Of a stretch of 64,000 nt of DNA, positions 6,754 through 55,661 are shown piece after piece. Both the position numbers and the translations under genes were made by a program. Location of the stretch: NCBI RefSeq assembly GCF_006459125.1, contig NZ_CP041070.1:1240001-1304000 (forward strand), in the 5' to 3' direction. The stretch is from Halarcobacter anaerophilus. GTDB lineage: Bacteria > Campylobacterota > Campylobacteria > Campylobacterales > Arcobacteraceae. The first letter of the stretch is position 1; each line of letters begins with the position of its first letter. The notes under the pieces are model-generated. The model was not told the DNA's origin, did no database searches, and saw only the letters and a list, made by a program, of their open reading frames with translations.

Positions 6754-6759
6754 TACAGT

Positions 6760-8963: not shown

Positions 8964-8973
8964 AATTTATACC

Positions 8974-8985: not shown

Positions 8986-9041
8986 ACAAAGGTAAATAAT
9001 TTTTATAAGATAGTCGTAATAATAGAAATAAAGGATTTGTT

Positions 9042-37360: not shown

Positions 37361-37366
37361 AAAATG

Positions 37367-37394
37367 AAAGAGATAGTTTTTTATCTCTTTTATA
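37367..37394 (+). terminator. intrinsic terminator after adhesin B
   Basis: AAAGAGATA (37367-37375) pairs with TATCTCTTT (37382-37390) across a T-rich loop and is followed by TATATTT, six bases after the adhesin stop codon. Confidence 0.8.
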
Positions 37395-37412
37395 TTTAGA
37401 TAAAATGTTTGT

Positions 37413-38015
37413 ATGAAAGTTTTTATAATCATCTTATTTTTAATCTTTTCAAATTTATCTGCTGATTTTAGTAGTGAAAGCCTAATAAAAAAAGTGGAGA
37501 AAAAATATAATCGTTTTGCAAAAAACAGATTTATTGCATTAAACAAGATGATAAAGATTGCATCAAAAAAAGATGAATTGGGGAAATTGGAAAAAGTGAA
37601 TGATTTTTTCAATAATGTCCCTTATGCAGAGGACAGAGATATTTACGGTGTAAGTGATTATTGGGCAAACCCCTATGAATTTTTAGGAAAAGACAGAGGC
37701 GATTGCGAAGATTATGTCATAGCTAAATATTTTGTTTTAAAATATTTGGGAGTCTCTACTAAAAAAATGTTTTTAAGTTACGTAAAACGTGAGGATTCTA
37801 AGAGTGCTCATATGGTTCTATTATACTTTAATACACCGTCTTCGGAACCTTTGGTCTTAGACAGCATTGTTAAAAAAATATTTCCGGCTTCAAAAAGGAT
37901 GGATTTAAAACCTATATACAACTTTAACCCTGATATTTTAAAAAATGGGAAGAAAACATCTGCTCATAGAAAATGGGACAGATTATTAAAAAATTTTATG
38001 GAGAATAAGATATGA
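37413..38015 (+). CDS. lapG: LapG-type periplasmic cysteine protease (BTLCP family)
   Basis: A 200-residue transglutaminase-like cysteine protease with a signal peptide (1-17). The catalytic triad is visible as Cys98 (KDRGDCEDYVIAKYF), His133 (KSAHMVLLYF) and Asp150 (LVLDSI). The acidic residues around Cys98 match the calcium site of the family. LapG cleaves the N-terminal retention module of LapA-type adhesins and releases them from the cell surface when c-di-GMP is low. The ATGA overlap with lapD couples the two. The ribosome site is weak. The substrate is inferred to be adhesin B and perhaps adhesin A, although neither shows the di-alanine cleavage site known from Pseudomonas. Confidence 0.92.
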   Translation: MKVFIIILFLIFSNLSADFSSESLIKKVEKKYNRFAKNRFIALNKMIKIASKKDELGKLEKVNDFFNNVPYAEDRDIYGVSDYWANPYEFLGKDRGDCEDYVIAKYFVLKYLGVSTKKMFLSYVKREDSKSAHMVLLYFNTPSSEPLVLDSIVKKIFPASKRMDLKPIYNFNPDILKNGKKTSAHRKWDRLLKNFMENKI

Positions 38016-39901
38016 GTCTATTTAAACAAATTTCAATTTTATTATCAATTGTTTTTACAATACTATTTTTATTGATAGTAAATATAAGTTTTAATGAAAT
38101 AAAAGATTCTGCACAAAAATCACTATACCAAAATATTCAAAACAGTGTTTCGAATATAAGTCTGTCTATTACAAATGCAAATGCGGATGTAAGCGCTATA
38201 AAAACAGTTCTGAATGCAAGCTTTGACAATGGAAATTATGAAAAAATAGTTTTCAAAGATGTAGATGAAAAGATAATATATGAACGAACTAAAAATGAGG
38301 AAATCTCTCAAAATGAAATTCCTTCTTGGTTTCTAAATCTTGTAAATATCAAAGAGGTTTCTTCCTCTTCAACAATATCACAAAACTGGATGGTTTTAGG
38401 AACACTAGAAATTTTTGCAGATAGGGAAGTGTTTTATACTCAAATGTATAAAATATTTTCAAGCCTGATAGTTACTCTTGTAGTAACATTTATTCTGTTT
38501 TTAGTTATCTTGGCATTAACTCTTAAATCAATTTTAAAACCCTTACTTATGATAAAAGAGCAGAGTGACTCTATTTTAGAAAACAAATTTATTTTTCAAG
38601 ATAAACTACCTTTTACTTTAGAGTTTAAAAGAGTAACCTTAAGTATAAATAATATGGTTGAAAAAATTCAAAATATTTTTGAACATGCAAATGAAATTTT
38701 AAGAAGAAATAGGGAACTTATTTATATTGACGAACTGACAAAACTTTATAATCGTAATTATCTTGTTTTAAAAACAAGTGAGTTTTTAGAAGAAAACAGC
38801 GTAAATCATTCAGGCTTCGTAATTTCAATAGTTTTAACAAGAATAGATTTGTTGAATAAAAAAATAGGATATGAAAAAGTAGATAAGTTATTTATTGAGA
38901 TATCGAATATTATAAAAGGGTTGGTTTTTCTTGAGGAAGCTAACATTATAGCAAGGACAAAAGCCTCTGAGTTTATGATTGTTTTACCAAGAGTTAAAGA
39001 GAATGAAGCAGAAGATATTGCTAAACAGTTATCCACAAAATTAAAAAACTTATTGATAAATATAGAAGATGAAGATATAAAACTATATATGGCTCTTTGT
39101 AGTTTTAAAGATGAAAAAAATTACAGCGAACTGCTTACAAAAGTTGATTCGGCTCTTAGACAGGCAAAATTATCAAGCCAAAAAGATTACTATTATTTAA
39201 AAAGTAGTGAAGTATATGAAGTAAAAAAGAACTTTAGTAAAATTCTTGATTTGGCAAAAGAGAATGAACAATTTAATATTTTATATAAAGATGTAATTTC
39301 CCTTGATTCAAAAGATATAATATATGAAACCGTAAGTTTTGAAATTAAAACAAAAGATAAAACTTACTCTTATAATGAATTTATTTCCCATGCAATAGAA
39401 TTAAATTTATTAGAAGAGGTATATTTAAAAGTTATAGAAAAAATATTAAATTTAAATACATCCAATAAAAAGCTCGCCCTTGAGATTCCAAATAATTTTA
39501 TCAAAAACCTTCCTTTTGAAAAACTTAGGAAACTTTTTAATGAACAATACGGTTTACAAAATATAATTTTTGAAATAGAAGAGGAATCTTTTGTAAAATA
39601 TAGTTCTAACAGTGCTTTATTTATTGATATTCTTAAAGATTATGATTTTAATATTGCAGTTTATAATTTTATGGGAATAAGTGAAGATTATAATTATTTA
39701 AATATGAAAAAACCTGAATATATAAAAGTAAATAAAAACTTTTTAAAGTTAAGTGAAAACTTTGATGCTTTAAATATTATAAATAAATCATTAAGTGTGA
39801 AATTAATTGTAACTTCAATTAATGATGAAGAAGATTTAAATATAGCGAAAAATAAAAATGTAAATTTTATCTCTGGAAAAATCACAAAACATATTGTTTG
39901 A
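38012..39901 (+). CDS. lapD: LapD-type c-di-GMP receptor with degenerate GGDEF and EAL domains
   Basis: A 629-residue inner-membrane protein with a membrane segment (about 7-27), a LapD/MoxY-type periplasmic domain, a second membrane segment (about 148-172), HAMP, GGDEF-like (about 235-400) and EAL-like (about 405-629) domains. Trp126 (SQNWMVLG) lies where LapD inserts a Trp into LapG. The GGDEF signature is replaced by KASEF (317-321) and the EAL motif by ETV (YETVSF near 438), so it should bind rather than make or degrade c-di-GMP. By the known mechanism it holds LapG when c-di-GMP is bound and so preserves the adhesin on the surface. It forms a two-gene unit with lapG. Confidence 0.93.
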   Translation: MSLFKQISILLSIVFTILFLLIVNISFNEIKDSAQKSLYQNIQNSVSNISLSITNANADVSAIKTVLNASFDNGNYEKIVFKDVDEKIIYERTKNEEISQNEIPSWFLNLVNIKEVSSSSTISQNWMVLGTLEIFADREVFYTQMYKIFSSLIVTLVVTFILFLVILALTLKSILKPLLMIKEQSDSILENKFIFQDKLPFTLEFKRVTLSINNMVEKIQNIFEHANEILRRNRELIYIDELTKLYNRNYLVLKTSEFLEENSVNHSGFVISIVLTRIDLLNKKIGYEKVDKLFIEISNIIKGLVFLEEANIIARTKASEFMIVLPRVKENEAEDIAKQLSTKLKNLLINIEDEDIKLYMALCSFKDEKNYSELLTKVDSALRQAKLSSQKDYYYLKSSEVYEVKKNFSKILDLAKENEQFNILYKDVISLDSKDIIYETVSFEIKTKDKTYSYNEFISHAIELNLLEEVYLKVIEKILNLNTSNKKLALEIPNNFIKNLPFEKLRKLFNEQYGLQNIIFEIEEESFVKYSSNSALFIDILKDYDFNIAVYNFMGISEDYNYLNMKKPEYIKVNKNFLKLSENFDALNIINKSLSVKLIVTSINDEEDLNIAKNKNVNFISGKITKHIV

Positions 39902-40851: not shown

Positions 40852-41610
40852 TTAAATTATCTCTATTTTATACCCCGTATTATTTTGTGTCGTGATTAAA
40901 TCTTTGTGCAGTTTGTTTCTAAGTCTAAAAAGTACGGATCTAAAAGCAGCATAACCTGCCGGTTCATCTTGCCATATTGCATACTCTATCTGTTCTTGAG
41001 ATACATTATAACCTGCGCTGTTACAAAGTATTTTTATAATTTGAGTCTCTTTTTTTGTAAGTTTTACAGGTTCATCGCCGTAATATAAAATTTCAGTTTG
41101 TTTATCAAAAAGATATCCGTATTTGAGTTTTACGGTTCTTGATTTTTGCTCTTTTACTAGCTCTAATTGATGACTTAACGTTTTATTTATATTCTCAGCA
41201 GCGTCTAGTTCATGGTTTTTTTTCGTATCATCTTTAGATTTTTCCAAAGCAACTTCTATTGCAGCATGCAGATGGCTTTTTTTATAGGGTTTTAAAATAT
41301 ACCCGTAAGCCAGAGTTTCAGAAGCCTTTTTTATTGTTGATATTTCCGAGTTTGCCGTTAAAAAAACAACAGGTACGTTAGGAAGAGTGTTTTTTAATTC
41401 TCTTGCCAGTTCTATTCCTGTTGTAGGACCTTTTAGATAAATATCCATTAAAATCAAATCTGGAATTACACCCTCTTCAAGAAGTTTCATAGTTTTACAT
41501 CTATTAGGTGCTACTCCACAAGGTTCATATCCTAACTCTTTTAATGTCTCTTTTAAATTTATTGCTATTATTGATTCATCTTCTACAATCAATATTTTTA
41601 TTTTTTGCAT
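40852..41610 (-). CDS. OmpR-type response regulator 1 flanking the phenol hydroxylase operon
   Basis: A 252-residue regulator with a receiver domain (LIVEDESIIAINL; phosphoacceptor in LILMDIYLKGPTTG; Lys in YILKPYKKSH) and a C-terminal winged helix (LTKKETQIIKILCNSAGYNV, AAFRSVLFRLRNKLHKD). The DNA-binding end is nearly identical to the regulator at 47532-48293, including the recognition-helix region GYAAFRS-LFRLRNK, so both should bind the same operators. It overlaps the upstream kinase gene by one base. The shared 11-bp direct repeats in front of the aromatic genes are the natural candidates for its sites. Confidence 0.9.
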   Translation of the reverse strand: MQKIKILIVEDESIIAINLKETLKELGYEPCGVAPNRCKTMKLLEEGVIPDLILMDIYLKGPTTGIELARELKNTLPNVPVVFLTANSEISTIKKASETLAYGYILKPYKKSHLHAAIEVALEKSKDDTKKNHELDAAENINKTLSHQLELVKEQKSRTVKLKYGYLFDKQTEILYYGDEPVKLTKKETQIIKILCNSAGYNVSQEQIEYAIWQDEPAGYAAFRSVLFRLRNKLHKDLITTQNNTGYKIEII

Positions 41611-42908
41611 TAATCTTCCCTCTGAGGAAAAATAATATTACATTCTAATCCCTCATTATTTCTAAAATTTATTGTTCCGTTTAACTGATCTTCTACAATC
41701 GAATGGATTAACTGCATTCCTATTGAATCTGTTTTATACAAAGAGTCAATATTCTCTAATCCTTTTCCGTTGTCTCCAATTTTTATATGTATATCTTTTT
41801 CTAATTTTTTTATATGAATATAGAGTAAATTGTCTCTATTCTCTTTAAAAGCATATTTTAAAGCATTTACGCAAAGTTCATGTAAAACCATACCTACTTG
41901 TATACATCTGTTAGTAGAAAATACTAATTGATCGATACTCAAATCAACTTTTAAGTAAGTATTGTTTGAGATATAAAGCTCTTTTATATCATCAATAAGT
42001 CTTTCAATATAATCTTCCAAATTTATATAAGCCAGATTTTCCCCTAAATATAAAAATTCATGAACTAGCGCCATTGTATTGATTCTGCTTCTACTTTGTT
42101 TTAAGATATCTTTGACTTCATTATCTTGAACTCTTCTATATTGCATTGTAAGCAAAGAAGATATTATTTCCATATTGTTTTTTACTCTATGATGTATCTC
42201 TTTTAATAAAATCTCTTTTTCATCAACTGATTTTTGCAGCTCTTGATTCATATTTGTGATTTTATTTCTATATTCCAGTCTTGGTGTAATATCTCTTCCA
42301 AATGCGCAGATATAATCTTTTCCAGCATGTCTAAACCCATGTCCTGTAACTTCTATATTTACAATAGTTCCGTCTTTTTTCTTTTGGGTTGTTTCCAAAG
42401 ACCAATTTTTTGAAGAAGAAATTTTCTGCATTGTCTGTGCTGCCGTTTCTCTTGTAAAATTGGGATCCATTATTTCAAGCGGTTTACCTAAAAGTTCTTC
42501 TTTTTTATACCCAAGCATATTGCAAGCAGCATCATTTACATAAACAAATTTTGCATCAAGAGTAAACCAATATATGGCATCAACTGAGTTATCCAAGGCA
42601 AATTCGTAAGGGATAAGTCTCTCTTTGTCTTTATTTTGCAACTCTTTATATGCTTTGTCGATATTTTGTATTACTTTTTGCATGTGATTAATCATTAAAT
42701 AAAGAATAGAGCCTGTAGAGATGATAAAAAGTATTGCAAAAGTTAAAGGTCCTTGATGTGTAAGATCATTATGCTCAAAAAAAATTGAGATTAATTTATC
42801 TAAAAAAACAACTCCCAAAAGACCGATAATTATATATGTAAGAGAAAAACTTTTTGCCAATCTGTTTTTATCCAATATATTATTTTTTATTTCATTTTTT
42901 AAATTCAT
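41610..42908 (-). CDS. PAS sensor histidine kinase 1 (HisKA_2 type)
   Basis: A 432-residue kinase with two membrane segments (about 22-41 and 55-74) enclosing only a ~13-residue loop, a PAS domain (about 100-210; SVDAIYWFTLDAKFVYVNDA, YICAFGRDITPR), a HisKA_2 phosphoacceptor box (His239/240 in KEIHHRVKNNMEI) and an HATPase domain (HELCVNALKYAF, GDNGKGL). With so little outside the membrane, the PAS domain or the membrane itself is the likely sensor. The gene diverges from dmpK. It is a paralogue of the kinase at 48290-49582; the PAS domains differ more than the kinase cores. Confidence 0.91.
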   Translation of the reverse strand: MNLKNEIKNNILDKNRLAKSFSLTYIIIGLLGVVFLDKLISIFFEHNDLTHQGPLTFAILFIISTGSILYLMINHMQKVIQNIDKAYKELQNKDKERLIPYEFALDNSVDAIYWFTLDAKFVYVNDAACNMLGYKKEELLGKPLEIMDPNFTRETAAQTMQKISSSKNWSLETTQKKKDGTIVNIEVTGHGFRHAGKDYICAFGRDITPRLEYRNKITNMNQELQKSVDEKEILLKEIHHRVKNNMEIISSLLTMQYRRVQDNEVKDILKQSRSRINTMALVHEFLYLGENLAYINLEDYIERLIDDIKELYISNNTYLKVDLSIDQLVFSTNRCIQVGMVLHELCVNALKYAFKENRDNLLYIHIKKLEKDIHIKIGDNGKGLENIDSLYKTDSIGMQLIHSIVEDQLNGTINFRNNEGLECNIIFPQRED

Positions 42909-42929
42909 AATCTTTTCACCTTTGTAAAA

Positions 42930-42938
42930 ATTATAGCA
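42930..42938 (-). promoter_or_regulatory. extended -10 promoter of kinase 1
   Basis: Read on the minus strand this is TGCTATAAT, a consensus extended -10, about 22 bp before the kinase ATG, with AAAGGTG as ribosome site between. The paralogous kinase operon has TGATATAAT in the same place. Confidence 0.7.
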
Positions 42939-42962
42939 AAAATTTTTATTTTGAATTAGTAA

Positions 42963-42995
42963 TGCGAAAAAAAAGCGATATTTTTAACATATGAT
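42963..42995 (+). promoter_or_regulatory. direct-repeat operator and -10 box of the dmpKLMNOP operon
   Basis: TGCGA (42963-42967), six bases, AGCGA (42974-42978), then 11 bases and TATGAT (42990-42995). The repeat half-sites are 11 bp apart, on one face of the helix, and replace a -35 box. The same layout precedes mdh, dmpQ, the small peptide gene, the porin and the pheA-like gene. Activation by an OmpR-type regulator is inferred. Confidence 0.8.
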
Positions 42996-43027
42996 TCTTG
43001 CATTCTAGTTGGAAATAGGAGTTTTAA

Positions 43028-43258
43028 ATGAACGAATTAATGCCAAATCAGAAGAAATTTGTGCAGATTATTAAAATACTAAATAATGGATTCGTAGAAT
43101 TCTATTTTGCAGTTGGAGAGGTTGAAATGAACGTAGAGTTACTTTTACCTTATAAAGCTTTCATTGAATTTTGTCAAAACAACAGAGTCTCTTTTATAAA
43201 TGAAGAGCAGGAAAAAGCCTTGGAAGTTAATAATAAAATCTGGAAATACGGACTTTAA
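43028..43258 (+). CDS. dmpK: phenol hydroxylase assembly protein DmpK
   Basis: A 76-residue protein with the DmpK/PhK pattern: NGFVEFYFAVGEVEMNVELL, then AFIEFCQNNRVSF and a terminal KIWKYG. In Pseudomonas DmpK is needed to assemble the active oxygenase rather than for turnover. It is the first gene of a tight six-gene operon; dmpL follows after 17 bp. Confidence 0.9.
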   Translation: MNELMPNQKKFVQIIKILNNGFVEFYFAVGEVEMNVELLLPYKAFIEFCQNNRVSFINEEQEKALEVNNKIWKYGL

Positions 43259-43275
43259 AATATAAAGGAGAGAAG

Positions 43276-44265
43276 ATGGAACTAAATATAGCAAATATAG
43301 AAATTGAGCCCAAAAGACACACCTTTGGGCATATTGCAAAAAGGTTTGGAGAGGATAGACCTGCCTCAAGATATGAAGAGGCAGTTTATGATGGGCAAGC
43401 AACGGAAAACTTCCATTATAGACCAACTTACGAACCTGAGTTTGAAATATATGACGTAAAAAGAACTGTAATAAAAATGGATGATTGGTATAAACTGCTT
43501 GATCCTAGAAAATTTCATTATATGACATATGTTTCAACAAGAGCAAATCAAAATGCGGCAAGTAAAAGAAATTTTGAACTTATTGAAGAGAGATTATTAA
43601 CTCAAATGATTCCTGAAGATATAAAAGAGATAATTTATAATTATTTAACACCTTTAAGACACTATTTTTACGGAGTTAATCTAAATAATCTTTCAATAGT
43701 ATCAAGAGGTTACGGAACGGCATTGAACTCTGCCTCTCTTTTTTATGCGTCTGATAGTTTGGGGAACTCTCAGCATCTTACGAAAATCGTTTTATTGTTA
43801 TCAGATAACAATGTAGAAAGACTGGAAAAAGGGAAAAACGATTGGATGAATGATCCTAAATGGCAGCCTTTGAGAAAAACACTTGAAGATATTATGGTAG
43901 TAAAAGATCCTATTGAAATATTAGTTTCTCAAAATTTGATATTAAACGGATTACTTGTTCCTTTACTTATTACGCAATTTTCAAATACTTTAGTGCAAAA
44001 CGGACATATAACTGTCTCACTGTTAACTGAATTTATTTCCCAGTTGCAGGAAGAATCAATAAAATGGTTGGATTCTATTGTAAAAGTGATGGCAGAGGAA
44101 TCTGAAGAGAACAACAATATCTTATCTAAATGGTCAAAAAGTTATCTTTTAAAAGCAGATGAAGCGTTAGCTCCTTTGTCCGATTATAGTGACAATACAG
44201 ATATTTTACCGCAGATTAGACTTGATCTTGAAAATAGATTAAAAAAGATTGGATTAAAAATTTAA
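43276..44265 (+). CDS. dmpL: phenol hydroxylase small oxygenase subunit DmpL
   Basis: A 329-residue protein, close to the usual 331 of DmpL. Motifs of the beta subunit of soluble di-iron monooxygenases are visible: RPTYEPEFEIYD, DWYKLLDPRKFHYMTYVSTRA and SLFYASDSLGNSQHLTKI. It lacks the iron ligands and supports the DmpN catalytic subunit. AAGGAG lies before the ATG, and dmpM follows after 9 bp. Confidence 0.94.
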   Translation: MELNIANIEIEPKRHTFGHIAKRFGEDRPASRYEEAVYDGQATENFHYRPTYEPEFEIYDVKRTVIKMDDWYKLLDPRKFHYMTYVSTRANQNAASKRNFELIEERLLTQMIPEDIKEIIYNYLTPLRHYFYGVNLNNLSIVSRGYGTALNSASLFYASDSLGNSQHLTKIVLLLSDNNVERLEKGKNDWMNDPKWQPLRKTLEDIMVVKDPIEILVSQNLILNGLLVPLLITQFSNTLVQNGHITVSLLTEFISQLQEESIKWLDSIVKVMAEESEENNNILSKWSKSYLLKADEALAPLSDYSDNTDILPQIRLDLENRLKKIGLKI

Positions 44266-44274
44266 GGAGAGATT

Positions 44275-44550
44275 ATGTCAAAAAGTATTGCTTTGTTGTG
44301 TATTCAAGCAACAGATGAAGGAAGGACTATAGCAGAAGCTATAAAAGTTGATAATGAAGGTATTCAAATTACGAACAAACCTGCCATGATTCAAATTGAA
44401 AGGGAAGGTGAAATTGTAATCAAAGCAGATACCGTTTCTGATGCTTTGGGAAGAGATTGGGAACCTGAAGAGTTGCAGTTAATCTTAATCTCAACAGGCG
44501 GTCAAATTGATGAAGATGATGAACAATTCGTTGTTTATTGGAATAATTAA
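44275..44550 (+). CDS. dmpM: phenol hydroxylase regulatory (coupling) protein DmpM
   Basis: A 91-residue protein matching the cofactor-free coupling protein of di-iron monooxygenases (usual length about 90). It docks on the oxygenase and tunes the active site. AIKVDNEGIQITNKPAMIQI and LGRDWEPEELQLIL are typical. It is preceded by AAGGAG and followed after 13 bp by dmpN. Confidence 0.93.
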   Translation: MSKSIALLCIQATDEGRTIAEAIKVDNEGIQITNKPAMIQIEREGEIVIKADTVSDALGRDWEPEELQLILISTGGQIDEDDEQFVVYWNN

Positions 44551-44563
44551 AAAGGAGAATATT

Positions 44564-46084
44564 ATGAGTAGCAGTACAAGTCCCAGAAAAAAAAGATTAA
44601 GTAAAAAACAATCATATGAATATATGACAAGACTTGGTTGGGATACAACTTATCAAGATGAAAAAAAGGTTCACCCTTATTTAGAGTATGAGGGAATAAA
44701 AATACATGATTGGGACGCTTGGGAAGATCCTTTTAGAATGACTATGGAATCATATTGGAAACTTCAAGCTGAAAAAGATAAAAAGCTTTACTCAATTATA
44801 GATGCCTTTGCTCAAAATAACGGTCAAAAAAATATCACGGATGCAAGATATGTAAATGCCCTGAAAATATTTTTAACGGCAGTTACTCCAATTGAACATA
44901 ATGTTGTAAGCGGATTTGCAAACGTAGCTAGACAATTTAAAGGCGAGGGGGCTACTATAGCTTGCCAGATGCAAGCAATAGATGAACTTAGACATTATCA
45001 AACCCAGGTTCATACAATAAGTCATTATAATAAATATTTTGACGGCTTTCATGATTATAGAACTATGTATGACCGAATCTGGTATCTGTCGGTTCCAAAA
45101 TCTTTTGCCGATGATGGAAGCAGTGCAGGACCCTTTGAATTTATGATTGCCACAGGATTTGCTTTTGAGTTTGTTCTTACAAGTCTGCTTTTTGTTCCTT
45201 TTATGAGTGGTGCAGCATATAACGGAGATATGGCAACCGTAACTTTTGGATTTTCAGCTCAAAGTGATGAATCAAGACATATGACTTTAGGACTTCAAGC
45301 TGTAAAATTTATGCTTGAACAAGATGCCGACAATGTTCCAATTGTTCAAAGAATGATGGAAAAACAGTTGTGGAGAGGATATAGACTTTTATCTATAGTT
45401 TCTGCAATGATGGATTATATGTTACCTAATTCTCCAACTTCATGGGCTGAGGCAGTTGAACTTTATATAGAACAAAACGGTGTTGCTTTATTTAAAGATC
45501 TTGAAAAGTACGGAATAAAAATGCCTACTAAAATCTTAGATAAAATAATTGCGGAAAAAGAGCATGTTTCTCATCAATTATGGAAAACTTTGTATGTTCA
45601 TTCAAACGCAACGGCTTTTCATACATGGATACCCGATGAAGATAAAATGAACTGGCTTAGTCAAAAGTATCCAAACACTTTTGATAAACATTACAGACCG
45701 ATTCTTGAAGAGTATAAGAAAAAAGCAGAAAAGGGTGAAAGATATTACAGTGAAGCTCTTCCTTGTCTTTGTCAGACTTGTCAGCTGCCGCTTTTATTTA
45801 CTGACGTAATGAACGGCAAACCAACTGTTTATACCCATGAAACTACGGAGTTCAACGGAGAAAAATTTCATTTTTGTTCCGATGAGTGTAAAAATATTTT
45901 TGAAAATGAACCGAAAAAATATGCTCAAGCCTGGTTACCTCCATATCAAATTTTTCAAGGTAATTGTGGAGGAGAAACAATACCCGAAGTTTTAAAATGG
46001 TACAAAATCGAAAACGCAGTTGATAACTTAGATTATGTAGGCTCTCCCGATGAAGCTATGTGGAACAAATTAAAAAATATATAA
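44564..46084 (+). CDS. dmpN: phenol hydroxylase large di-iron subunit DmpN
   Basis: I chose ATG 44564, with AAAGGAG just upstream, rather than the in-frame ATG 44507 inside dmpM. The 506-residue catalytic subunit hydroxylates phenol to catechol with O2. The di-iron ligands are visible in the two-helix-pair pattern: Glu111 (TPIEHN), Glu141 and His144 (DELRH), Glu202 (FAFEFVL), Glu236 and His239 (DESRH). A C-terminal YHS domain with paired Cys (LCQTCQLP, HFCSDECKNIF) is present, as in DmpN. The family also acts on cresols, benzene or toluene, so the exact substrate is open. Confidence 0.95.
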   Translation: MSSSTSPRKKRLSKKQSYEYMTRLGWDTTYQDEKKVHPYLEYEGIKIHDWDAWEDPFRMTMESYWKLQAEKDKKLYSIIDAFAQNNGQKNITDARYVNALKIFLTAVTPIEHNVVSGFANVARQFKGEGATIACQMQAIDELRHYQTQVHTISHYNKYFDGFHDYRTMYDRIWYLSVPKSFADDGSSAGPFEFMIATGFAFEFVLTSLLFVPFMSGAAYNGDMATVTFGFSAQSDESRHMTLGLQAVKFMLEQDADNVPIVQRMMEKQLWRGYRLLSIVSAMMDYMLPNSPTSWAEAVELYIEQNGVALFKDLEKYGIKMPTKILDKIIAEKEHVSHQLWKTLYVHSNATAFHTWIPDEDKMNWLSQKYPNTFDKHYRPILEEYKKKAEKGERYYSEALPCLCQTCQLPLLFTDVMNGKPTVYTHETTEFNGEKFHFCSDECKNIFENEPKKYAQAWLPPYQIFQGNCGGETIPEVLKWYKIENAVDNLDYVGSPDEAMWNKLKNI

Positions 46085-46094
46085 AGGATAAAAA

Positions 46095-46454
46095 ATGGCA
46101 GTAAAATCAATAGGAGAATATCCTACAATTATGAAAGACAGCGTAGATAAGTTTCATGGAAATCAATTGGTTTTTATCTATTGGCATGCTCATTTTATGG
46201 AAGGGTCGGTAAAAGCTTTTGCTTTATCGCCTGATATGCCTTTTAGTGCAATTATGTCTGATATTATCCCTCTTTGTTACAAAGTCGAGCCTGATTTTGA
46301 AAAGCTTGATTTTGACAACACGGAAGTTATTTGGGAGATTGACGGAAAAGTTATAACACCTGATCCAAATAAAAGTTTAAAAGAGAATTCAATAGGGCAT
46401 AAATCTTATATTCAATTTACCACACCTGCATTGGACGGTAAGATAGGAGCTTAA
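46095..46454 (+). CDS. dmpO: phenol hydroxylase gamma subunit DmpO
   Basis: A 119-residue protein, the usual length of DmpO. It has the family start YPTIMKDSVDKFHGNQLVFI and WHAHFMEGS. It forms the small outer subunit of the (LNO)2 oxygenase. The next gene, dmpP, begins one base after its stop. Confidence 0.92.
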   Translation: MAVKSIGEYPTIMKDSVDKFHGNQLVFIYWHAHFMEGSVKAFALSPDMPFSAIMSDIIPLCYKVEPDFEKLDFDNTEVIWEIDGKVITPDPNKSLKENSIGHKSYIQFTTPALDGKIGA

Positions 46455-46455
46455 C

Positions 46456-47511
46456 ATGGGATATAAATTAGAAATAGAACCGACAGGCGATGTTGTAGAA
46501 GTTCAAGAGGGACAAACAATCCTTGATGCAGCTTTAAGACAAGGGGTATATCTACCTCACGCTTGTAATCACGGTCTTTGCGGTACCTGCAAAGTTGAAG
46601 TATTAGAAGGTGAGGTTGATTTAGGAGATGCTTCACCTTTTGCTTTAATGGATGTAGAAAGGGAAGAGGGATACTGTTTGGCTTGTACCGCAAGAGCTCT
46701 TGAAGATGTAGCAATAGAAGCAGATATAGATGAAGATTGTGATGCAAGATCAATACCCGTAAAAGATTTTATGGGTACGGTTATTGAATCTAAGATGTTG
46801 ACTCCTAGGATACTTGGAGTTTGGATAGAGTTAGATGAAAAAATTGATTTTCAAGCAGGTCAGTATATAAATCTTCATGTTCCCGGATTTGATGAGCCTA
46901 GAGCTTTCTCTTTGGCAAATCAACCAAGTACACAAAAGATTATAGAACTGAATATAGGAATCATCCCTGATGGTGAAGCAACACCTTGGATACATAAAAA
47001 TTTAAAAGTCGGAGACAGATACAAAATATCAGGTCCTTTTGGAAGATTTTTTGTAAAAAGAAGTGCCCAAAAACCTATGATATTTTTTGCAGGAGGTTCG
47101 GGGCTTTCAAGTCCAAAATCTATGATTTTAGATGAACTTGAAAACGGTTGTACGAAGCCTATTACTCTTTTTCACGGAGCAAGAAATCAAGAAGAACTGT
47201 ATTATGCAGATATGTTTAAAAAGCTTGATGAAGAGTATGAAAACTTTAGATATATTCCCGTTTTATCAAATAATGAAGATGAAAATTGGAGCGGAGAAGT
47301 TGGATTTACAAATGAGGTGGCTAAAAAGTTTTATGATAAGTTTGAAGGAAACAAAGCCTATCTTTGCGGTCCTCCTATGATGAGTGAAGCTTGTATAACA
47401 ACTTTGATGCAAGGAAGATTGTTTGAAAAAGATATTCATATAGAAAAATTCTTTTCAAAAGCGGATTTAAATGCACAAAACCAAAAGAGTCCTTTGTTTA
47501 AATCATTGTAA
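46456..47511 (+). CDS. dmpP: phenol hydroxylase reductase DmpP
   Basis: A 351-residue NADH-dependent reductase. The N-terminal plant-type [2Fe-2S] domain has CNHGLCGTC and a distal Cys in YCLAC. The FAD-binding domain has RAFSLANQP, and the NAD domain has FFAGGSGLSSPKS and YLCGPPMM. It passes electrons from NADH to DmpN. The stop codon lies inside a strong convergent terminator hairpin, so this ends the hydroxylase operon. Confidence 0.95.
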   Translation: MGYKLEIEPTGDVVEVQEGQTILDAALRQGVYLPHACNHGLCGTCKVEVLEGEVDLGDASPFALMDVEREEGYCLACTARALEDVAIEADIDEDCDARSIPVKDFMGTVIESKMLTPRILGVWIELDEKIDFQAGQYINLHVPGFDEPRAFSLANQPSTQKIIELNIGIIPDGEATPWIHKNLKVGDRYKISGPFGRFFVKRSAQKPMIFFAGGSGLSSPKSMILDELENGCTKPITLFHGARNQEELYYADMFKKLDEEYENFRYIPVLSNNEDENWSGEVGFTNEVAKKFYDKFEGNKAYLCGPPMMSEACITTLMQGRLFEKDIHIEKFFSKADLNAQNQKSPLFKSL

Positions 47512-47537
47512 TGCGGTATTAAAATACTGCATTACAA
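47506..47537. terminator. bidirectional terminator between dmpP and response regulator 2
   Basis: TTGTAATGC-G-GTATT and AATAC-T-GCATTACAA form a 15-bp stem (one G-T pair) around a two-base loop. It includes the dmpP stop codon and separates convergent genes. Confidence 0.85.
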
Positions 47538-48293
47538 CAACTCTATTTTATATCCCGTATTATTTTGATTTTTAATCAAATCTTTATGTATTTTATTTCT
47601 AAGTCTAAAAAGAAGTGATCTAAAAGCTGCATAACCTGCGGGTTCATCTTGCCAGATTGCATATTCTAACTGCTCTTGGGATACGTTTTGTCCCGGAGTG
47701 TGACATAAGATTTTTATTATTTTAATCTCTTTTAGCGTTAATTTTACAGGTTCGTCTCCAAAATATAAAATCTCTTTTTCTTTATCAAAAAGATAGCCGT
47801 ATTTTAATTTTACGGTTCTTGATTTTGATTCTTTTTTCAGATCTAATCTATATTCCAATGTTTTATTTATATTTTTTATCGAATTTAAATCAAAATTGTT
47901 TTTTTTATCCTCTTGTGCTTTTTTTATAGCAATCTCTATTGCAGCTTGAAGATGGCTCTTTTTATAAGGTTTTATCAAATATCCGTAAGCCAAAGTTTCG
48001 GAAGCTTTTTTTATAGTCGACAACTCTGAGTTTGCGGTTAAAAATATAACGGGTGTGTTTATCAAAATATCTTTTAATTCATTTGCCAGTTCTATTCCCG
48101 TAGTCGGACCTTGAAGGTATATATCCATAAGTATTAAATCAGGCAGGATATTTTTTTCATTTAAAAGTTTCATTGTGTTACAACGGTTGTTTGCAATACC
48201 GCAAGGTTCGTATCCAAGTTCACTTAATACCTGTTTTAAATTCAAAGCAATTATAGGTTCATCTTCGACTATTAAAATTTTTATTTTACTCAT
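47532..48293 (-). CDS. OmpR-type response regulator 2 flanking the phenol hydroxylase operon
   Basis: A 253-residue paralogue of the regulator at 40852-41610. The receiver motifs are conserved (LIVEDEPIIALNL, LILMDIYLQGPTTG, YLIKPYKKSH). The winged helix is nearly identical (YAIWQDEPAGYAAFRS-LFRLRNK). The main differences lie in the linker (about 128-160). Its start overlaps the kinase stop by 4 bp. Two regulators with matching DNA-reading helices imply one shared set of target promoters fed by two sensors. Confidence 0.9.
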   Translation of the reverse strand: MSKIKILIVEDEPIIALNLKQVLSELGYEPCGIANNRCNTMKLLNEKNILPDLILMDIYLQGPTTGIELANELKDILINTPVIFLTANSELSTIKKASETLAYGYLIKPYKKSHLQAAIEIAIKKAQEDKKNNFDLNSIKNINKTLEYRLDLKKESKSRTVKLKYGYLFDKEKEILYFGDEPVKLTLKEIKIIKILCHTPGQNVSQEQLEYAIWQDEPAGYAAFRSLLFRLRNKIHKDLIKNQNNTGYKIELL

Positions 48294-49582
48294 TTTACCT
48301 CCTTTTTAGGAAATATAATACTACACTCTAATCCACTATTGTTCTTAAACTCTATTGTTCCGTGAAGTTGAAAATCAACTATTGATTCGATTAGTTGCAT
48401 TCCTATAGAATCAGATTTTCTAAGTTTATCCAAATCTTTCAACTCCTCACCGTTGTCTTTTATTATTACATGAATATTCTCATCTTCGATTTTCATACGA
48501 AGATATAAAAGATTTTTTCTATTACTTTTAAAAGCGTATTTAAAAGCATTTACGCAAAGTTCGTGCAAAAGCATACCAACTTGAATACATCTATTTATAG
48601 AAAACTCCATTTTATCAATACTCAAATCAACTTCAATTTGCGTATTATTTGAGATATAAAGCTCTTTTATATCGTCAACAAGTCTTTCTATATACTCATT
48701 TACGTTTATATAAGCCAAGTTTTTTCCTAAATATAAAAACTCATGTACTAAAGCCATAGCATGAATTTTGCTTCGGCTCTCTTTCATCTGCTCTTTAAAC
48801 TTTTCATCTTCTGATTTATATGCTTGCATATTAAGTAATGAAGAGATAATTTCCATATTGTTTTTTACCCTGTGATGAATCTCTTTTAATAAAATTTCTT
48901 TCTCTTTTACCGATTTTTGAAGCTCTTCATTCATCTTTGTAATTTTATTTCTATTCTCTATTCTTTGGGTCATATCTCTGGCAAAAGCGCAAATATACTC
49001 TTTGCCGTTGTAGATAAAGGCATGACCTGAAACTTCTACAGGGTAGGTCGTTCCGTCTTTTCTTCTATGGGTTGATTCGATTCTCCAGTTTGGAATAGTT
49101 CTAATATCATTCATACATAAAGGAGAAGTCTCTCTGGTAAAATTAATATCAACATCTTCTAAATACATATTCTCAAACTCCTCTTTCGTATAACCGTCCA
49201 ATTTACAGGTTGCTTCATTTACATAAGTAAATTTTCCTTCAAGAGTAAACCAATGAATGGCATCAACAGAGTGGTCCAAGGCAAACTCGTAAGGAGCAAG
49301 TCTGTCTTTCTCTTTTTGTTTTAAATCGTTATAGGCTTTTTCTATATTTCTAATAACTTTTTGCATATGATTAATCATAAAATAAAGAAGAATCCCCGTA
49401 GAGATAATAAACAATAACCCAAAGGTAAAAATTCCGTTTTTGCTGACATCATTATGTTCAAAAAATATCTGAACTAATTTATCTAAAAAAAGTAAACCTA
49501 TAAATCCCGTAAAAACGTAAGAGAAAGAGAATCTTCTAGCTATTTTGTTTTTATTAAAAAAATATTTTCCAAAACTAAACAT
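48290..49582 (-). CDS. PAS sensor histidine kinase 2 (HisKA_2 type)
   Basis: A 430-residue paralogue of the kinase at 41610-42908: two close membrane segments, a PAS domain (about 100-210; SVDAIHWFTLEGKFTYVNEA, GKEYICAFARDMTQR), HisKA_2 (KEIHHRVKNNMEIISSLLNM) and HATPase (HELCVNAFKYAF). PAS residues differ from kinase 1 mainly in the middle (YLEDVDINFTRETSPLCMND against PLEIMDPNFTRETAAQTMQK), so the two may respond to different ligands. It diverges from mdh, whose promoter carries the shared operator. Confidence 0.91.
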   Translation of the reverse strand: MFSFGKYFFNKNKIARRFSFSYVFTGFIGLLFLDKLVQIFFEHNDVSKNGIFTFGLLFIISTGILLYFMINHMQKVIRNIEKAYNDLKQKEKDRLAPYEFALDHSVDAIHWFTLEGKFTYVNEATCKLDGYTKEEFENMYLEDVDINFTRETSPLCMNDIRTIPNWRIESTHRRKDGTTYPVEVSGHAFIYNGKEYICAFARDMTQRIENRNKITKMNEELQKSVKEKEILLKEIHHRVKNNMEIISSLLNMQAYKSEDEKFKEQMKESRSKIHAMALVHEFLYLGKNLAYINVNEYIERLVDDIKELYISNNTQIEVDLSIDKMEFSINRCIQVGMLLHELCVNAFKYAFKSNRKNLLYLRMKIEDENIHVIIKDNGEELKDLDKLRKSDSIGMQLIESIVDFQLHGTIEFKNNSGLECSIIFPKKEVK

Positions 49583-49633: not shown

Positions 49634-49666
49634 CGCGAATATTTCGCGAATAATTTTTTATATACT
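49634..49666 (+). promoter_or_regulatory. direct-repeat operator and -10 box of mdh
   Basis: CGCGA (49634-49638), six bases, CGCGA (49645-49649), 11 bases, TATACT (49661-49666). It has the same 33-bp layout as the dmpK and dmpQ promoters. The sequence is also a dyad (CGCGAA-TAT-TTCGCG), unlike the other sites. Confidence 0.78.
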
Positions 49667-49693: not shown

Positions 49694-50626
49694 TTGAAAA
49701 AAAGAGTAGGAGTTATCGGAGTAGGAAATGTAGGGGCAACTATAGCTTATAATTTAGCCCTAAAAGAGTCTTGTGACGAGATTTTATTAAAAGATATAAG
49801 AGAAGATTATACAAAAGCCGTTGCTTTGGATATCTCTCAAGCTTCATGTGCAATTAATTCAAAAACCAAAATAGAAGAAGTATCAAATAATGCAGATTTT
49901 AAAGAGTGCAATATTATCGTAATAACAGCGGGAATTGCCAGAAAGCCTGGAATGAGCAGAGATGATCTTCTTCTTACAAATGCAGAAATTATGAAAAATA
50001 TAATAGAAGAGATTGCTAAACTAAACAAAGATGCAATAATTATTATAGTTTCAAACCCTTTGGATGCCATGGTATATACGGCTTTAAAAATTTCCAAATT
50101 CCCAAGAAAGAGAGTTTTAGGTATGGCAGGTATTTTAGACAGTGCTAGAATGAGCTATTTTATACAAGAAAAACTGGGTAAAAAAGATATTCAAGCTTTA
50201 GTTTTAGGAGGACATGGAGATGAAATGGTTCCTTTAATAGACTCTACAAAAGCAGACGGTATCTCTATTTCAAAACTGCTTTCACAAAAACAGATAGATG
50301 AAATTATAGAAAAAACAAAAAACGGCGGAGTAGAAATCGTAAAGCTTTTTAAAACAGGCTCTGCTTATTATGCCCCAGCTCATTCGACACTGCTTATGAT
50401 TGAAGCAATTTTAAATGATGAAAAAAAGATATACCCTTGTGCCGTTAAACTAGAAGGGGAATACGGCTTTAAAGATACGGTTACGGGAGTTCCCGTTGTT
50501 TTAGGTAAAAACGGAGTTGAAAAGATTGTTGAATACAAACTTAGCTTAGCTGAACAAAAAGCTTTCGCAACTTCGATTAAGAGTGTAAATACTCTTATAA
50601 ACAAAGTAGAAAAGTATATAAAATAG
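49694..50626 (+). CDS. mdh: malate dehydrogenase, NAD-dependent
   Basis: The start is TTG 49694, with AGAGGAG six bases upstream. The 310-residue protein of the LDH/MDH family has the Rossmann motif GVGNVGATIA and the malate-type substrate loop RKPGMSRDDLL (Arg rather than the Gln of lactate dehydrogenases). The catalytic His lies in LGGHGDEMVPL, and VSNPLDAMVY is present. It interconverts malate and oxaloacetate in the TCA cycle. It stands alone between the hydroxylase and ring-cleavage operons but carries the same operator, so it appears to be co-induced with aromatic degradation. Confidence 0.92.
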   Translation: MKKRVGVIGVGNVGATIAYNLALKESCDEILLKDIREDYTKAVALDISQASCAINSKTKIEEVSNNADFKECNIIVITAGIARKPGMSRDDLLLTNAEIMKNIIEEIAKLNKDAIIIIVSNPLDAMVYTALKISKFPRKRVLGMAGILDSARMSYFIQEKLGKKDIQALVLGGHGDEMVPLIDSTKADGISISKLLSQKQIDEIIEKTKNGGVEIVKLFKTGSAYYAPAHSTLLMIEAILNDEKKIYPCAVKLEGEYGFKDTVTGVPVVLGKNGVEKIVEYKLSLAEQKAFATSIKSVNTLINKVEKYIK

Positions 50627-50702: not shown

Positions 50703-50735
50703 TGCGATTATTCTGCGAATTTTTTTTTGTAAAGT
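50703..50735 (+). promoter_or_regulatory. direct-repeat operator and -10 box of the dmpQ-B ring-cleavage operon
   Basis: TGCGA (50703-50707), six bases, TGCGA (50714-50718), 11 bases, TAAAGT (50730-50735). The 16-bp core TGCGATTATTCTGCGA occurs identically in front of the porin gene on the other strand. Confidence 0.8.
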
Positions 50736-50788: not shown

Positions 50789-51115
50789 ATGAAACATAAT
50801 ATCTTAGTTAGAGATAAATCCAGAAATCATACTTGCCATGAAGACAAAAGCTTGATGGATGGATTAAATGTTTATGAAAATTTAGTACCCAAAGGTTGTC
50901 ATAACGGTGCTTGCGGTGTATGTAAAATTCATATTTTAAACGGTGAATATTCAAAATCAAAAATGAATAGAAGATATATCTCACAAGAAGATGAAGATAA
51001 AAATATTGTTTTGGCGTGTAAAGTTTTTCCCAAAACTGATATGGAAATAGAGTTCCTTCCTAAACCTAAAATCCTATCAGCTTTAGAAAAAAAAGTATAT
51101 ATCTTAGGAAATTAA
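50789..51115 (+). CDS. dmpQ: [2Fe-2S] ferredoxin DmpQ/XylT-like
   Basis: A 108-residue plant-type ferredoxin with cluster ligands in GCHNGACGVC and a distal LAC. XylT/DmpQ proteins re-reduce the iron of catechol 2,3-dioxygenase after oxidative inactivation. The position directly before dmpB supports this role. AAGGAAAGGA precedes the ATG. Confidence 0.88.
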   Translation: MKHNILVRDKSRNHTCHEDKSLMDGLNVYENLVPKGCHNGACGVCKIHILNGEYSKSKMNRRYISQEDEDKNIVLACKVFPKTDMEIEFLPKPKILSALEKKVYILGN

Positions 51116-51128
51116 ATAAGGAGAAAAA

Positions 51129-52076
51129 ATGGGCGGGATTATGAGATTGGGTCATATAGACCTAAATGTTCTGGATATTGAAAAATCAAGAGAATATTAT
51201 ACAAATATAATGGGAATGGTAGTAGTAAGAGAGGATAGTGACGGAACCTTGTATCTAAAATGCTGGGATGAGTGGGATAAATATAGTTTGGTTCTTAGAC
51301 CAAGTGATGAGGCAACTTTCAACACAGCTGCTTATAAAGTAGAGAGTGATGAGGATATTGATGATTTAAAGGCAAAAATAGAAGCTTATGGCGTAGAAAC
51401 GGAAATTTTACCCGAAGGTGAAGTTGCCGAATGTGGAAGAACACTAAAGTTTACGGCACCAAGCGGACATATTTTTCATCTATATGCCTATAAAACTTTT
51501 GTAGGCAAAGATGTGGGTGATACAAATCCCAGACCTTGGCCTTTTGAAGGAAAAGGAATCAAAGCTCATTGGATAGATCATACTTTGCTAATGTGTGAAG
51601 GTCCTGAAAAAGTGATGGCAGGAACTAAGTTTTTCCAAGAGGTATTAGGTTTTAAATTAGCTGAACAAGTAACAGTAGGTCCTGAAGGTTCACTTCAGGC
51701 TGCAACTTGGCTGGCACGTACTTCAACACCGCATGATATCGCTTTTGTTGCGGGACCTCATACAGGAATGCATCATTTCGCTTACTTTTTAGACGGTTGG
51801 AATGATATTTTAAGAGCAGCAGATGTTATGGCTATGCATAATGTAAAAATAGATGTAACACCGCAAAGACACGGGATTACAAGAGGTGAAACGATTTATT
51901 TCTTTGATCCATCGGGACATAGACTTGAAACTTTTGCGGGACTAGGTTATTTGGTGCAGCCTGATATGCCGACGATTACTTGGACGGAAGAAGAGTTATG
52001 GAGAGGTATTTTTTACCATACGGGTGCTGAAGACGGTGCTTTTACCACTGCTTACACTCTTTCTGCATATAAATAG
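51129..52076 (+). CDS. dmpB: catechol 2,3-dioxygenase
   Basis: A 315-residue extradiol dioxygenase with two vicinal-oxygen-chelate domains. The iron ligands appear as His151 (HWIDHTLLM), a His of the 215-216 pair (GMHHFAYF) and Glu267 (SGHRLETFAG). It opens catechol to 2-hydroxymuconic semialdehyde. AAGGAG fits ATG 51129; a second ATG at 51141 is possible. It belongs to the dmpQ operon. Confidence 0.95.
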   Translation: MGGIMRLGHIDLNVLDIEKSREYYTNIMGMVVVREDSDGTLYLKCWDEWDKYSLVLRPSDEATFNTAAYKVESDEDIDDLKAKIEAYGVETEILPEGEVAECGRTLKFTAPSGHIFHLYAYKTFVGKDVGDTNPRPWPFEGKGIKAHWIDHTLLMCEGPEKVMAGTKFFQEVLGFKLAEQVTVGPEGSLQAATWLARTSTPHDIAFVAGPHTGMHHFAYFLDGWNDILRAADVMAMHNVKIDVTPQRHGITRGETIYFFDPSGHRLETFAGLGYLVQPDMPTITWTEEELWRGIFYHTGAEDGAFTTAYTLSAYK

Positions 52077-52084
52077 GAGATGTT

Positions 52085-52510
52085 GTGCAAACAGCAGTAA
52101 CACAAAAGAGTATATCAAGACAAGCCTCATATGAAGCTTGTCTCTTTGCAATACAAAAAGCTGAGCAGTTGAATATAAATATCAATGTCTCAGTTGCGGA
52201 TAACAAAGGGTTGGAAATGGCTTTTTTAAGAATGGAAAACTCTTTTATCCACTCAATAGATATTGCAAAAGACAAAGCTTATACCAGTGCAAGTTTTGGT
52301 TTCCCAACACAGCAGTGGAGTACAATTTTCAAAAGTATGCCTCATTTGGAACAAGGTTTTTCAAATAGGGGGAGATTAATTCCTTTTGGAGGAGGGATGC
52401 CCATTTTTGAAAACGGTATTAAAATAGGAGCAATAGGTATTTCAGGCGGAACTGAAGAGGAAGATATTATATGCGCGAAATATGCAATTGAAAAAATAGG
52501 ATTAGAATAA
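52085..52510 (+). CDS. GlcG/HbpS-family (DUF336) protein
   Basis: A 141-residue protein starting at GTG 52085 with GGAGAT upstream. It shows the GlcG/HbpS pattern: ISVADNKG-like VSVADNKGLEMAFLRMENS, KDKAYTSASF, then GGGMPIF and IGAIGISGGTEEED. Such small proteins often accompany catabolic operons. Some bind haem or corrinoids, and for most the role is unknown. Its ATG-adjacent end overlaps dmpC by one base, so it is co-translated with the pathway. Confidence 0.85.
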   Translation: MQTAVTQKSISRQASYEACLFAIQKAEQLNININVSVADNKGLEMAFLRMENSFIHSIDIAKDKAYTSASFGFPTQQWSTIFKSMPHLEQGFSNRGRLIPFGGGMPIFENGIKIGAIGISGGTEEEDIICAKYAIEKIGLE

Positions 52511-53967
52511 TGAAAAAAGTACAACACTATATTAACGGACAATTTATAGATTCGGTTTCAAACGAGTTTTTCGATAACTATAACCCTGCAACAAATGAGT
52601 TAATCTCAAAAGTTGCTTTAGGAAGAGAAGATGAGGTTAATGCAGCAGTGCAAGCTGCAAAAAATGCCCTTACAGGTGAGTGGGGGCAAATGAAGCTAAA
52701 CGACAGAATAGCAATGATGTATGAAATAGCAAATGAGATAGATAGAAGATTTGATGATTTTTTAGAAGCAGAAGCTTTGGATACGGGGAAACCTTACTCA
52801 ATAGCCAGACATATTGATATTCCAAGAGGTGCCGCAAATTTCAAAGTATTTGCCGATACTATGAAAGCTGTTGCGGATGAAGCGTATCAAGCAAATACTC
52901 CTGACGGTAAAAAAATGTTTAATTACAGTGTAAGAAAACCAAAAGGTGTAATTGCCGTAATTTCTCCTTGGAATTTACCTCTTTTGCTTATGACGTGGAA
53001 AGTAGGACCTGCTATGGCTTGCGGAAATTCAGTTGTTGTTAAACCTTCCCAAGTAACACCTACAACTACCTCTCTTTTGGGAGAAGTTATGAGTAAAGTA
53101 GGGGTTCCGGCTGGAGCTTATAATGTAGTTCAAGGAAAAGGTTCAATTACAGGAAATCTTTTAACGGCACATAAAGATATTGATGCAATTACTTTTACGG
53201 GAGAAACAGTAACAGGTGAAATGATTATGAAAGCTTGCTCTGTAGGAGTTAGAGATGTTTCCCTTGAACTTGGAGGGAAAAACCCTGCAATCGTATTTGC
53301 GGATTGTGATATGCAAAAAGCAGTTTTTGAAACAACAAGATCATGCTTTTCAAACTCGGGACAAGTATGTTTAGGAACTGAGAGAGTTTATGTACAAAGG
53401 GAAATTTTCGATGAGTTTGTAGCAAAACTTAAAGAATCAGCTTCAAAATTAAAACTTGGTATCCAACACGATGAGTCATCTGATATGGGACCTCTAGTAA
53501 GTGCAACTCACAGAGACAAAGTTTTGGAATATTATAAAAAAGCTGAAGCAGAGGGAGCAAATGTTGTTCTTGGCGGTGGAGTTCCTAAAATGAGTGGAAA
53601 TATGAAAGACGGATATTGGGTAGAACCTACAATTTGGACAGGTTTGCCTGAAACTGCAACAGTTGTAAAAGAGGAAGTATTTGGTCCTTGTTGCCATGTA
53701 TCAGTATTTGATACCGAAGAAGAAGTAATAAAAATGGCAAATGATACTAAATACGGACTTGCTTCTACAATATTTACGGAAAATTTAACCAAAGCACATA
53801 GAGTTGCTAGTCAAATTGATTCAGGAATTGTATGGATTAACTCTTGGTTCTTAAGGGATTTACGAACACCTTTTGGCGGAATGAAAGGTTCAGGTATAGG
53901 AAGAGAGGGTGGTCATCACTCTTTAGAATTTTACACAGAACTAAAAAACGTATGTATAAAAATGTAA
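52510..53967 (+). CDS. dmpC: 2-hydroxymuconic semialdehyde dehydrogenase
   Basis: A 485-residue aldehyde dehydrogenase with the catalytic Glu in LELGGK, the catalytic Cys in NSGQVCLG, an NAD-binding region (SPWNLPLLLMTWK, FTGETVTGEMI) and a C-terminal GGMKGSGIGREGG. The place between catechol dioxygenase and the hydratase points to oxidation of 2-hydroxymuconic semialdehyde to 2-hydroxymuconate (4-oxalocrotonate branch). Confidence 0.92.
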   Translation: MKKVQHYINGQFIDSVSNEFFDNYNPATNELISKVALGREDEVNAAVQAAKNALTGEWGQMKLNDRIAMMYEIANEIDRRFDDFLEAEALDTGKPYSIARHIDIPRGAANFKVFADTMKAVADEAYQANTPDGKKMFNYSVRKPKGVIAVISPWNLPLLLMTWKVGPAMACGNSVVVKPSQVTPTTTSLLGEVMSKVGVPAGAYNVVQGKGSITGNLLTAHKDIDAITFTGETVTGEMIMKACSVGVRDVSLELGGKNPAIVFADCDMQKAVFETTRSCFSNSGQVCLGTERVYVQREIFDEFVAKLKESASKLKLGIQHDESSDMGPLVSATHRDKVLEYYKKAEAEGANVVLGGGVPKMSGNMKDGYWVEPTIWTGLPETATVVKEEVFGPCCHVSVFDTEEEVIKMANDTKYGLASTIFTENLTKAHRVASQIDSGIVWINSWFLRDLRTPFGGMKGSGIGREGGHHSLEFYTELKNVCIKM

Positions 53968-53976
53968 GGTTTGTTT

Positions 53977-54765: not shown

Positions 54766-54775
54766 AGGATTATAT

Positions 54776-55660: not shown

Positions 55661-55661
55661 A

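Follow-up and report, generated by a model that had tools for sequence, protein, structure and literature searches.

Two sensor-regulator pairs and a putative direct-repeat operator at the phenol hydroxylase cluster of Halarcobacter anaerophilus

Results

The window analysed here is a stretch of 64,000 nucleotides from Halarcobacter anaerophilus (Arcobacteraceae; contig NZ_CP041070.1, positions 1,240,001 to 1,304,000), whose genome consists of one contig of 3,016,922 bases (3.02 Mb). It contains a gene cluster for phenol hydroxylation and meta-cleavage together with two paralogous pairs of sensor kinase and response regulator, and this text deals with the regulation of the cluster by these pairs. 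Pair A (40852-42908) comprises an OmpR/PhoB-type response regulator (regulator A, 40852-41610) and a kinase with two membrane helices, PAS, HisKA_2 and HATPase domains (kinase A, 41610-42908); pair B (47532-49582) comprises regulator B (47532-48293, 75% identical to regulator A) and kinase B (48290-49582, 64% identical to kinase A). Both pairs lie on the minus strand and bracket the plus-strand phenol hydroxylase operon dmpKLMNOP (43028-47511), which was identified by domain matches. Coordinates and reading of this arrangement had been given correctly in the initial annotation, which was made from the letters of the DNA alone. Beyond the second pair, the plus strand carries a gene of the lactate/malate dehydrogenase family (ldh, 49694-50626, domain match), the meta-cleavage genes (50789-57478: dmpQ-type ferredoxin, catechol 2,3-dioxygenase, an hbpS-like gene, dmpC, E, F, G and H), a hydrolase and a DMT transporter, followed on the minus strand by an OprD-family porin gene (oprD, 60059-61258) and a prephenate dehydratase gene (61337-62368).

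The window contains exactly four copies of GCGA-N7-GCGA, a direct repeat of 11 bp, compared to 0.20 +/- 0.47 in shuffled sequence, and these four putative operators point into the four catabolic units (the coordinates include the -10 element described below): operator 1 (42964-42995, +) leads into dmpK, operator 2 (49635-49666, +) into ldh, operator 3 (50704-50735, +) into dmpQ and the meta-cleavage genes and operator 4 (61293-61324, -) into oprD. These are also the only four exact matches in the whole genome (three in the reversed control), and the chance that random sites all fall within the 21.6-kb cluster is approximately 3e-9. Exactly 11 nt past each repeat begins a -10 element of the form TAnnnT (TATGAT, TATACT, TAAAGT and TAAGCT, respectively). 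With one mismatch allowed, the whole 32-bp motif gave six matches in the genome, all in the cluster, while the reversed control gave five. A tandem direct repeat near position -35 is a trait of operators of the OmpR/PhoB family, and the 11-bp repeat with the -10 element at a fixed distance corresponds, as far as can be read from the sequence, to the class-II layout of PhoB/OmpR promoters. One-mismatch operators were observed at 59854 (+), with the -10 element TAATAT, 5' of an open reading frame (ORF, 59917-60003) for a hydrophobic peptide of 28 amino acids, which may be a small membrane protein belonging to this regulon, and at 62393-62424 (-), with TATTAT, immediately 5' of the prephenate dehydratase gene, a homologue of which (pheA) adjoins oprD in several relatives as well. 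These two sites were not counted among the parts of the system.

For comparison with relatives, 40 stretches from 23 genomes were combined with the window into 25 regions of 807,214 bases. The repeated word was found 86 times at a spacing of 7, compared to four times in total at the eleven other spacings examined (4-6 and 8-15), and eight permuted words at spacing 7 occurred zero to three times each. Although the -10 element was no part of the search, TAnnnT was present at offset 26 in 78 of the 86 sites (background 4%); six of the eight deviating sites read AATAAT, and the last T was invariant (86/86). Most sites lead into dmpK (20), dmpQ (19), oprD (21) or ldh (8), and the others into a second diiron monooxygenase (1), a truncated regulator (1) or other ORFs (13; representatives are an MCP chemoreceptor, a short-chain dehydrogenase, an ABC-type periplasmic binding protein, a weakly matched solute-binding protein and a TauE permease), with no ORF found for three. 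The second diiron monooxygenase, approximately 25% identical to dmpL/dmpN, is found within the cluster of genome G005, where it has an operator of its own (L062, ~5900-9400), and a similar one adjoins the kinase/regulator pair in G041.

In a set of 104 Arcobacteraceae genomes, 24 were classified as phenol hydroxylase genomes by the subunit PF04663. The motif including the -10 element occurred 100 times in the whole set (two in the reversed control), with 93 occurrences within the 24 genomes and at least two in each of them. Among the seven full motifs in the other 80 genomes, three lie by a remnant cluster in G011, and one is located 5' of oprD in G017, close to the end of a contig; the remaining three look like chance matches. 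In the G011 remnant (L072, 16309-17004), an N-terminally cut regulator A directly follows the operator and the phenol hydroxylase is gone. A close regulator (at least 65% identity) was detected in 23 of the 24 phenol hydroxylase genomes, compared to one of the 80 others, namely the truncated copy of G011 (Fisher 8e-21); the exception among the 24, G095, is 86% complete and split into approximately 270 contigs. In G041 and G042 the dmpK-side operator is located on a different contig than the regulator, which indicates that the link between regulator and operator is not made by neighbourhood alone.

Paralogous regulators elsewhere allowed a comparison of operators within the family. The regulator of pair C, at 541 kb in this genome, is 41% identical and has the recognition segment GEGALRGVLFRLRQK. 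The divergent promoter of this pair reads GAG(C or A)-N7-GAGA-N11-TATAAT or TACAAT in 5/5 orthologous loci examined, and the claim for this group rests on these loci because the pattern is not specific by itself in the own genome (five matches vs seven in the reversed control). Pair C (L003, 383-3159) is divergently oriented to an ORF whose start, SRRSFLK, is Tat-like and which matches no Pfam family. Group D regulators are 32-37% identical and carry YDLGKLRTLIYRVKQK-type segments. In 10 of 11 loci, the group D regulator is accompanied by TGTGA repeats with this geometry, two of the ten being detected only by a looser second scan; L179 lacks the site. When shuffled sequence was scanned for exact repeats of any GC-containing word in this arrangement, zero matches were obtained. 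The half-sites are therefore TGCGA in A/B, TGAGA in C and TGTGA in D at identical geometry, which supports the assignment of the A/B regulators to their operator and indicates that the geometry belongs to the regulator family, while one base of the half-site shifts with the recognition helix. Directly after the invariant Arg224, the A/B regulators have Ser (one row has Thr), the C regulators Gly or Asn and the D regulators Thr; as a guess, this residue may read the third base of the half-site. The half-site code does not cover all paralogues, since among eight regulator loci outside these groups only one (L174) has such a site, of the TGTGA type.

Control by an activator of the DmpR/XylR type would be recognisable by a XylR_N domain joined to a sigma-54 AAA+ protein and by -24/-12 promoters, and none of this was found at the cluster. 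A search for the sigma-54 activator domain, which was positive in 14/14 control genomes, gave one strong match in the genome, a GAF-AAA-Fis protein approximately 1.2 Mb away, while the other six matches were weak (E 1.4e-6 or worse). XylR_N had no match in the 104 genomes, but this search was silent in the control genomes too and has little weight, so that the point is carried by the AAA+ search. RpoN is encoded in this genome; a GG-N10-GC sigma-54 promoter was not found 5' of the four catabolic units. The initial annotation had proposed that the two-component pairs stand in place of DmpR and had named a DmpR/XylR-type gene elsewhere in the genome that controls these promoters as a finding that would speak against it; the proposal is supported by these results, and no DmpR/XylR-type activator was found.

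Both kinases contain HisKA_2 (E 2e-26 and 2e-25) together with one PAS and one HATPase domain, and Response_reg and Trans_reg_C scored above the Pfam cut-off in both regulators. In a structural model of kinase A, long helices at 14-46 and 54-106 are connected by a loop of approximately 7 residues, indicating that the kinase has almost no periplasmic part, as had been proposed for both kinases. The model of regulator A shows a winged helix (159-249) behind a long helical linker (111-158), and the residues D11, D56, T85 and K107 are invariant across 36 aligned rows. Fold comparison matched the kinase core to EL346, a likeness of fold without functional meaning, and among the regulator matches listed most span residues 1-141, so that the winged helix is barely covered. 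H, N, G1 and G2 boxes are present in the HisKA_2 kinases, except that kinase B of the window lacks the second Gly of the G1 box (DNGEE instead of DNGxG) and so may depart from normal kinase function. Transcription of the kinase operons would run away from operators 1 and 2; on the minus strand, these operons have apparent extended -10 elements of their own (TGnTATAAT), and autoregulation is possible.

Between the two pairs of the window, the regulators are 91% identical over the recognition region, 82% over the winged helix domain, 79% over the receiver and 50% over the linker, whereas the kinases are 72% identical in HisKA_2 and 56% in PAS. This comparison bears out the earlier observation that the DNA-reading regions are nearly identical while PAS domains and linkers differ more. 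Across the relatives, A and B regulators of one genome share 92% identity over the recognition region (94% between A regulators). In trees of 33 rows, from which the partial regulators of G011 and G093 were excluded for the regulator, a single branch sets nine B rows and the third pair of G060 apart from the other rows, with support values of 100/98 in the regulator tree and 83/76 in the kinase tree; the trees do not settle the position of the root, and a concatenated tree was made in quick form only. The two pairs are, judged from their sequences, the product of an old duplication, and both trees support the duplicated control unit that was suggested initially. Likewise, the idea of a single operator set is strongly supported by the identification of a cluster-confined candidate operator and by a recognition helix common to both regulators.

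Pair B occurs in 9 of 23 genomes, always alongside A, while the other 14 genomes, some of them drafts, show A-type pairs only. Pair A therefore probably suffices and B is probably an added input, which corrects the initial view in that B is not essential to the design. Within the fetched stretches, ldh is present in 8/9 clusters with B compared to 1/11 clusters with a single pair. When 21 A and 10 B rows of the kinase were compared, leaving out G034A, nine columns had no residue in common, and six of these are located in the PAS domain (p ~0.01); a control split within A gave eleven diagnostic columns with three in PAS. In the regulator, six columns separate A from B, five in the receiver, one in the linker and none in the winged helix. 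At kinase columns 113 and 175, all ten B rows have His, where A has Tyr (Phe once) and Gln, respectively. Column 175 aligns with the flavin-contacting Asn164 of the methane monooxygenase sensor kinase MmoS, and column 113 shares strand parity with its Thr103, which is an argument from parity and not a structure measurement.

Elsewhere in the window, on the plus strand, two giant ORFs of 3059 and 2724 amino acids were observed (9042-18221 and 29186-39901), separated by an HlyD-type secretion gene, and the second is followed by a C93 protease and a LapD-like protein; this looks like a LapD/LapG-controlled giant adhesin system.

Discussion

We consider it probable that the two pairs represent two two-component channels that read one cis code and thereby control the phenol hydroxylase operon, ldh, the dmpQ/meta-cleavage genes and oprD. 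In the proposed mechanism, the kinase would be held in the membrane by its two helices and would sense its signal with the cytoplasmic PAS domain. It would autophosphorylate in the HHRVKNN box and pass the phosphate to Asp56 of the neighbouring regulator, as suggested by the conserved family residues. The regulator, as a tandem dimer, is predicted to bind the two 11-bp repeats TGCGA-N6-TGCGA, and because the -10 element starts 11 nt past the second GCGA, bound regulator would replace a -35 element and recruit the sigma-70 polymerase as a class-II activator. Pair A would act as the core regulator, while pair B, as an old duplicate with conserved DNA-reading helix but changed PAS and receiver domains, most likely brings a second signal to the promoters controlled by A. 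By inference, the channels A and B would be insulated from each other.

Several observations weigh against this interpretation. Without the -10 element, GCGAN7GCGA is present in 91 of the 104 genomes and hence not specific, so that specificity can only be claimed for the motif including the -10 element. In several relatives, a repeated GCGAAGCCGTAGCGA was found that looks unrelated to the operator, and among six fetched sites far from clusters five lack the -10 element, while one (G036, 1407528) has it. In G042, no operator was found alongside the kinase/regulator pair within the 20-kb stretches fetched on each side. The A/B branch reaches only 83/76 in the kinase tree, and B may arise within A in the regulator tree. 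Finally, the second Gly of the G1 box is lost in three of ten B rows (window B, G022B and G034B). A general rule that B is a pseudokinase was rejected, given that the change is confined to these three rows.

This G1 change, together with the 14 of 23 genomes that manage without B, could also indicate that B is a redundant or dosage copy that responds to the signal of A, or a kinase that is partly inactive and serves mainly to remove phosphate. We regard this as possible but doubtful, because B forms one old clade that has been retained in nine genomes of several genera and the identity among its PAS domains (77%) exceeds that to the A domains of the same genome (60%; 71% among A domains), with six PAS columns fixed differently. 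Since these six are the majority of the nine diagnostic kinase positions, a supply of different signals through A and B seems plausible from the sequences.

As to the nature of the signals, the best match of the PAS domain of kinase A in a single-sequence search of the PDB was MmoS (3ewk, E 1e-10), with NifL lower down. Like the kinases described here, MmoS is a sensor kinase with a PAS domain and is linked to a related diiron monooxygenase, the soluble methane monooxygenase, and it binds flavin adenine dinucleotide. An analogous flavin-bound PAS domain that reports redox state or oxygen instead of an aromatic compound is nevertheless unlikely, as the flavin contacts of MmoS/Aer (H132, N164 and R195) are replaced by L144, Q175 (H in B) and G204 (A in B), albeit in one weak alignment, and a profile search ranked 3olo and 3bwl first. 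Fold comparison also returned 3bwl (Z 17.4, root mean square deviation 2.9, 124 residues), a fold match without functional meaning. At the level of individual residues only, the small residues at the end of the PAS domain (A202-F203-G204-R205) resemble A145-E146-G147-R148 of TodS, a type of PAS domain that binds a monoaromatic compound in a hydrophobic pocket; TodS structures were absent among the matches listed of the single-sequence, profile and fold searches, which excludes nothing. The lack of conservation of the flavin contacts weakly favours a small-molecule ligand, and an aromatic substrate or pathway intermediate appears likelier than redox sensing from the residues present.

The overlap of the operator with the -35 region in every case would also suit a repressor that blocks the polymerase until a signal removes it. 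We consider such a repressor improbable, since no conserved TTGACA-like -35 element can be read in the repeats, the -10 element lies at a distance that is constant to the nucleotide, and activators of the PhoB type use 11-bp direct repeats adjoining the -10 element. That the putative operator serves a different, unlinked transcription factor and is associated with these regulators by neighbourhood only is very improbable, given the absence of any other regulator among the cluster genes examined, the co-occurrence of the regulator in 23 of 24 genomes against one remnant in 80, and the operators of paralogues C and D with the same geometry and an exchanged third base.

Several known systems are close to the one described here. 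In PhoB boxes, 11-bp direct repeats occupy the position of a -35 element, and the regulators described here share the winged helix and the 11-bp repeats replacing -35 with the PhoB/OmpR family, but differ by the long linker, helical in the model, by HisKA_2 partners and by their own half-site TGCGA. The large soluble kinase TodS combines PAS1 with two kinase modules and a receiver, and TodT and StyR are LuxR-type regulators. According to PMC4861429, which covers some of this architecture of TodS, TodS/TodT, TmoS/TmoT and StyS/StyR are two-component systems that control aromatic oxidation with PAS domains in the kinase, as proposed here. In contrast to the multidomain hybrid kinase and LuxR-type regulator of TodST, however, the window encodes short membrane kinases with a single PAS and HisKA_2 and regulators with Trans_reg_C, in two copies and with an 11-bp direct-repeat operator. 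Similar phenol hydroxylase and meta-cleavage genes are governed by DmpR according to PMC4486848, but DmpR is a one-component NtrC-like activator, whereas the system of the window is a two-component system without such a protein or a sigma-54 promoter. Two-component control of aromatic catabolism is thus a kind already known from TodST and its relatives; the present case is distinguished by the build from HisKA_2 kinase and OmpR-type regulator, the operator of its own, the duplication and the paralogue code. We found no description of this regulation among the titles listed in the searched open literature, and no paper in the open PMC literature mentions both "Arcobacter" and "phenol hydroxylase"; PMC4584990 contains no mention of phenol, aromatic or catechol.

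It is tempting to extend the paralogue comparison to a one-letter code TG(C, A or T)GA at 11 bp and fixed -10 distance, which would be read by a paralogous two-component family of the Arcobacteraceae; two channels with different PAS pockets would share one code in the phenol branch, so that regulators A and B may co-occupy the two half-sites as heterodimers, forming a two-input gate at each catabolic promoter; in this full form we regard the idea as speculative and rather unlikely. For Arcobacter butzleri, PMC2147049 describes many two-component systems whose function could not be predicted, and the absence of RpoN. Against this background, our analysis provides an exact and testable assignment of regulator, operator and regulon for aromatic degradation in this group, with potential parts for a phenol biosensor, and indicates a phenol hydroxylase pathway that would be wired apart from sigma-54 and DmpR in a family in which A. 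butzleri lacks RpoN. Moreover, the two pairs may represent a natural case of duplication in which the inputs diverged while the DNA code stayed fixed, and the presence of paralogues that differ by one base in their code makes the evolution of operator specificity directly testable in the Arcobacteraceae.

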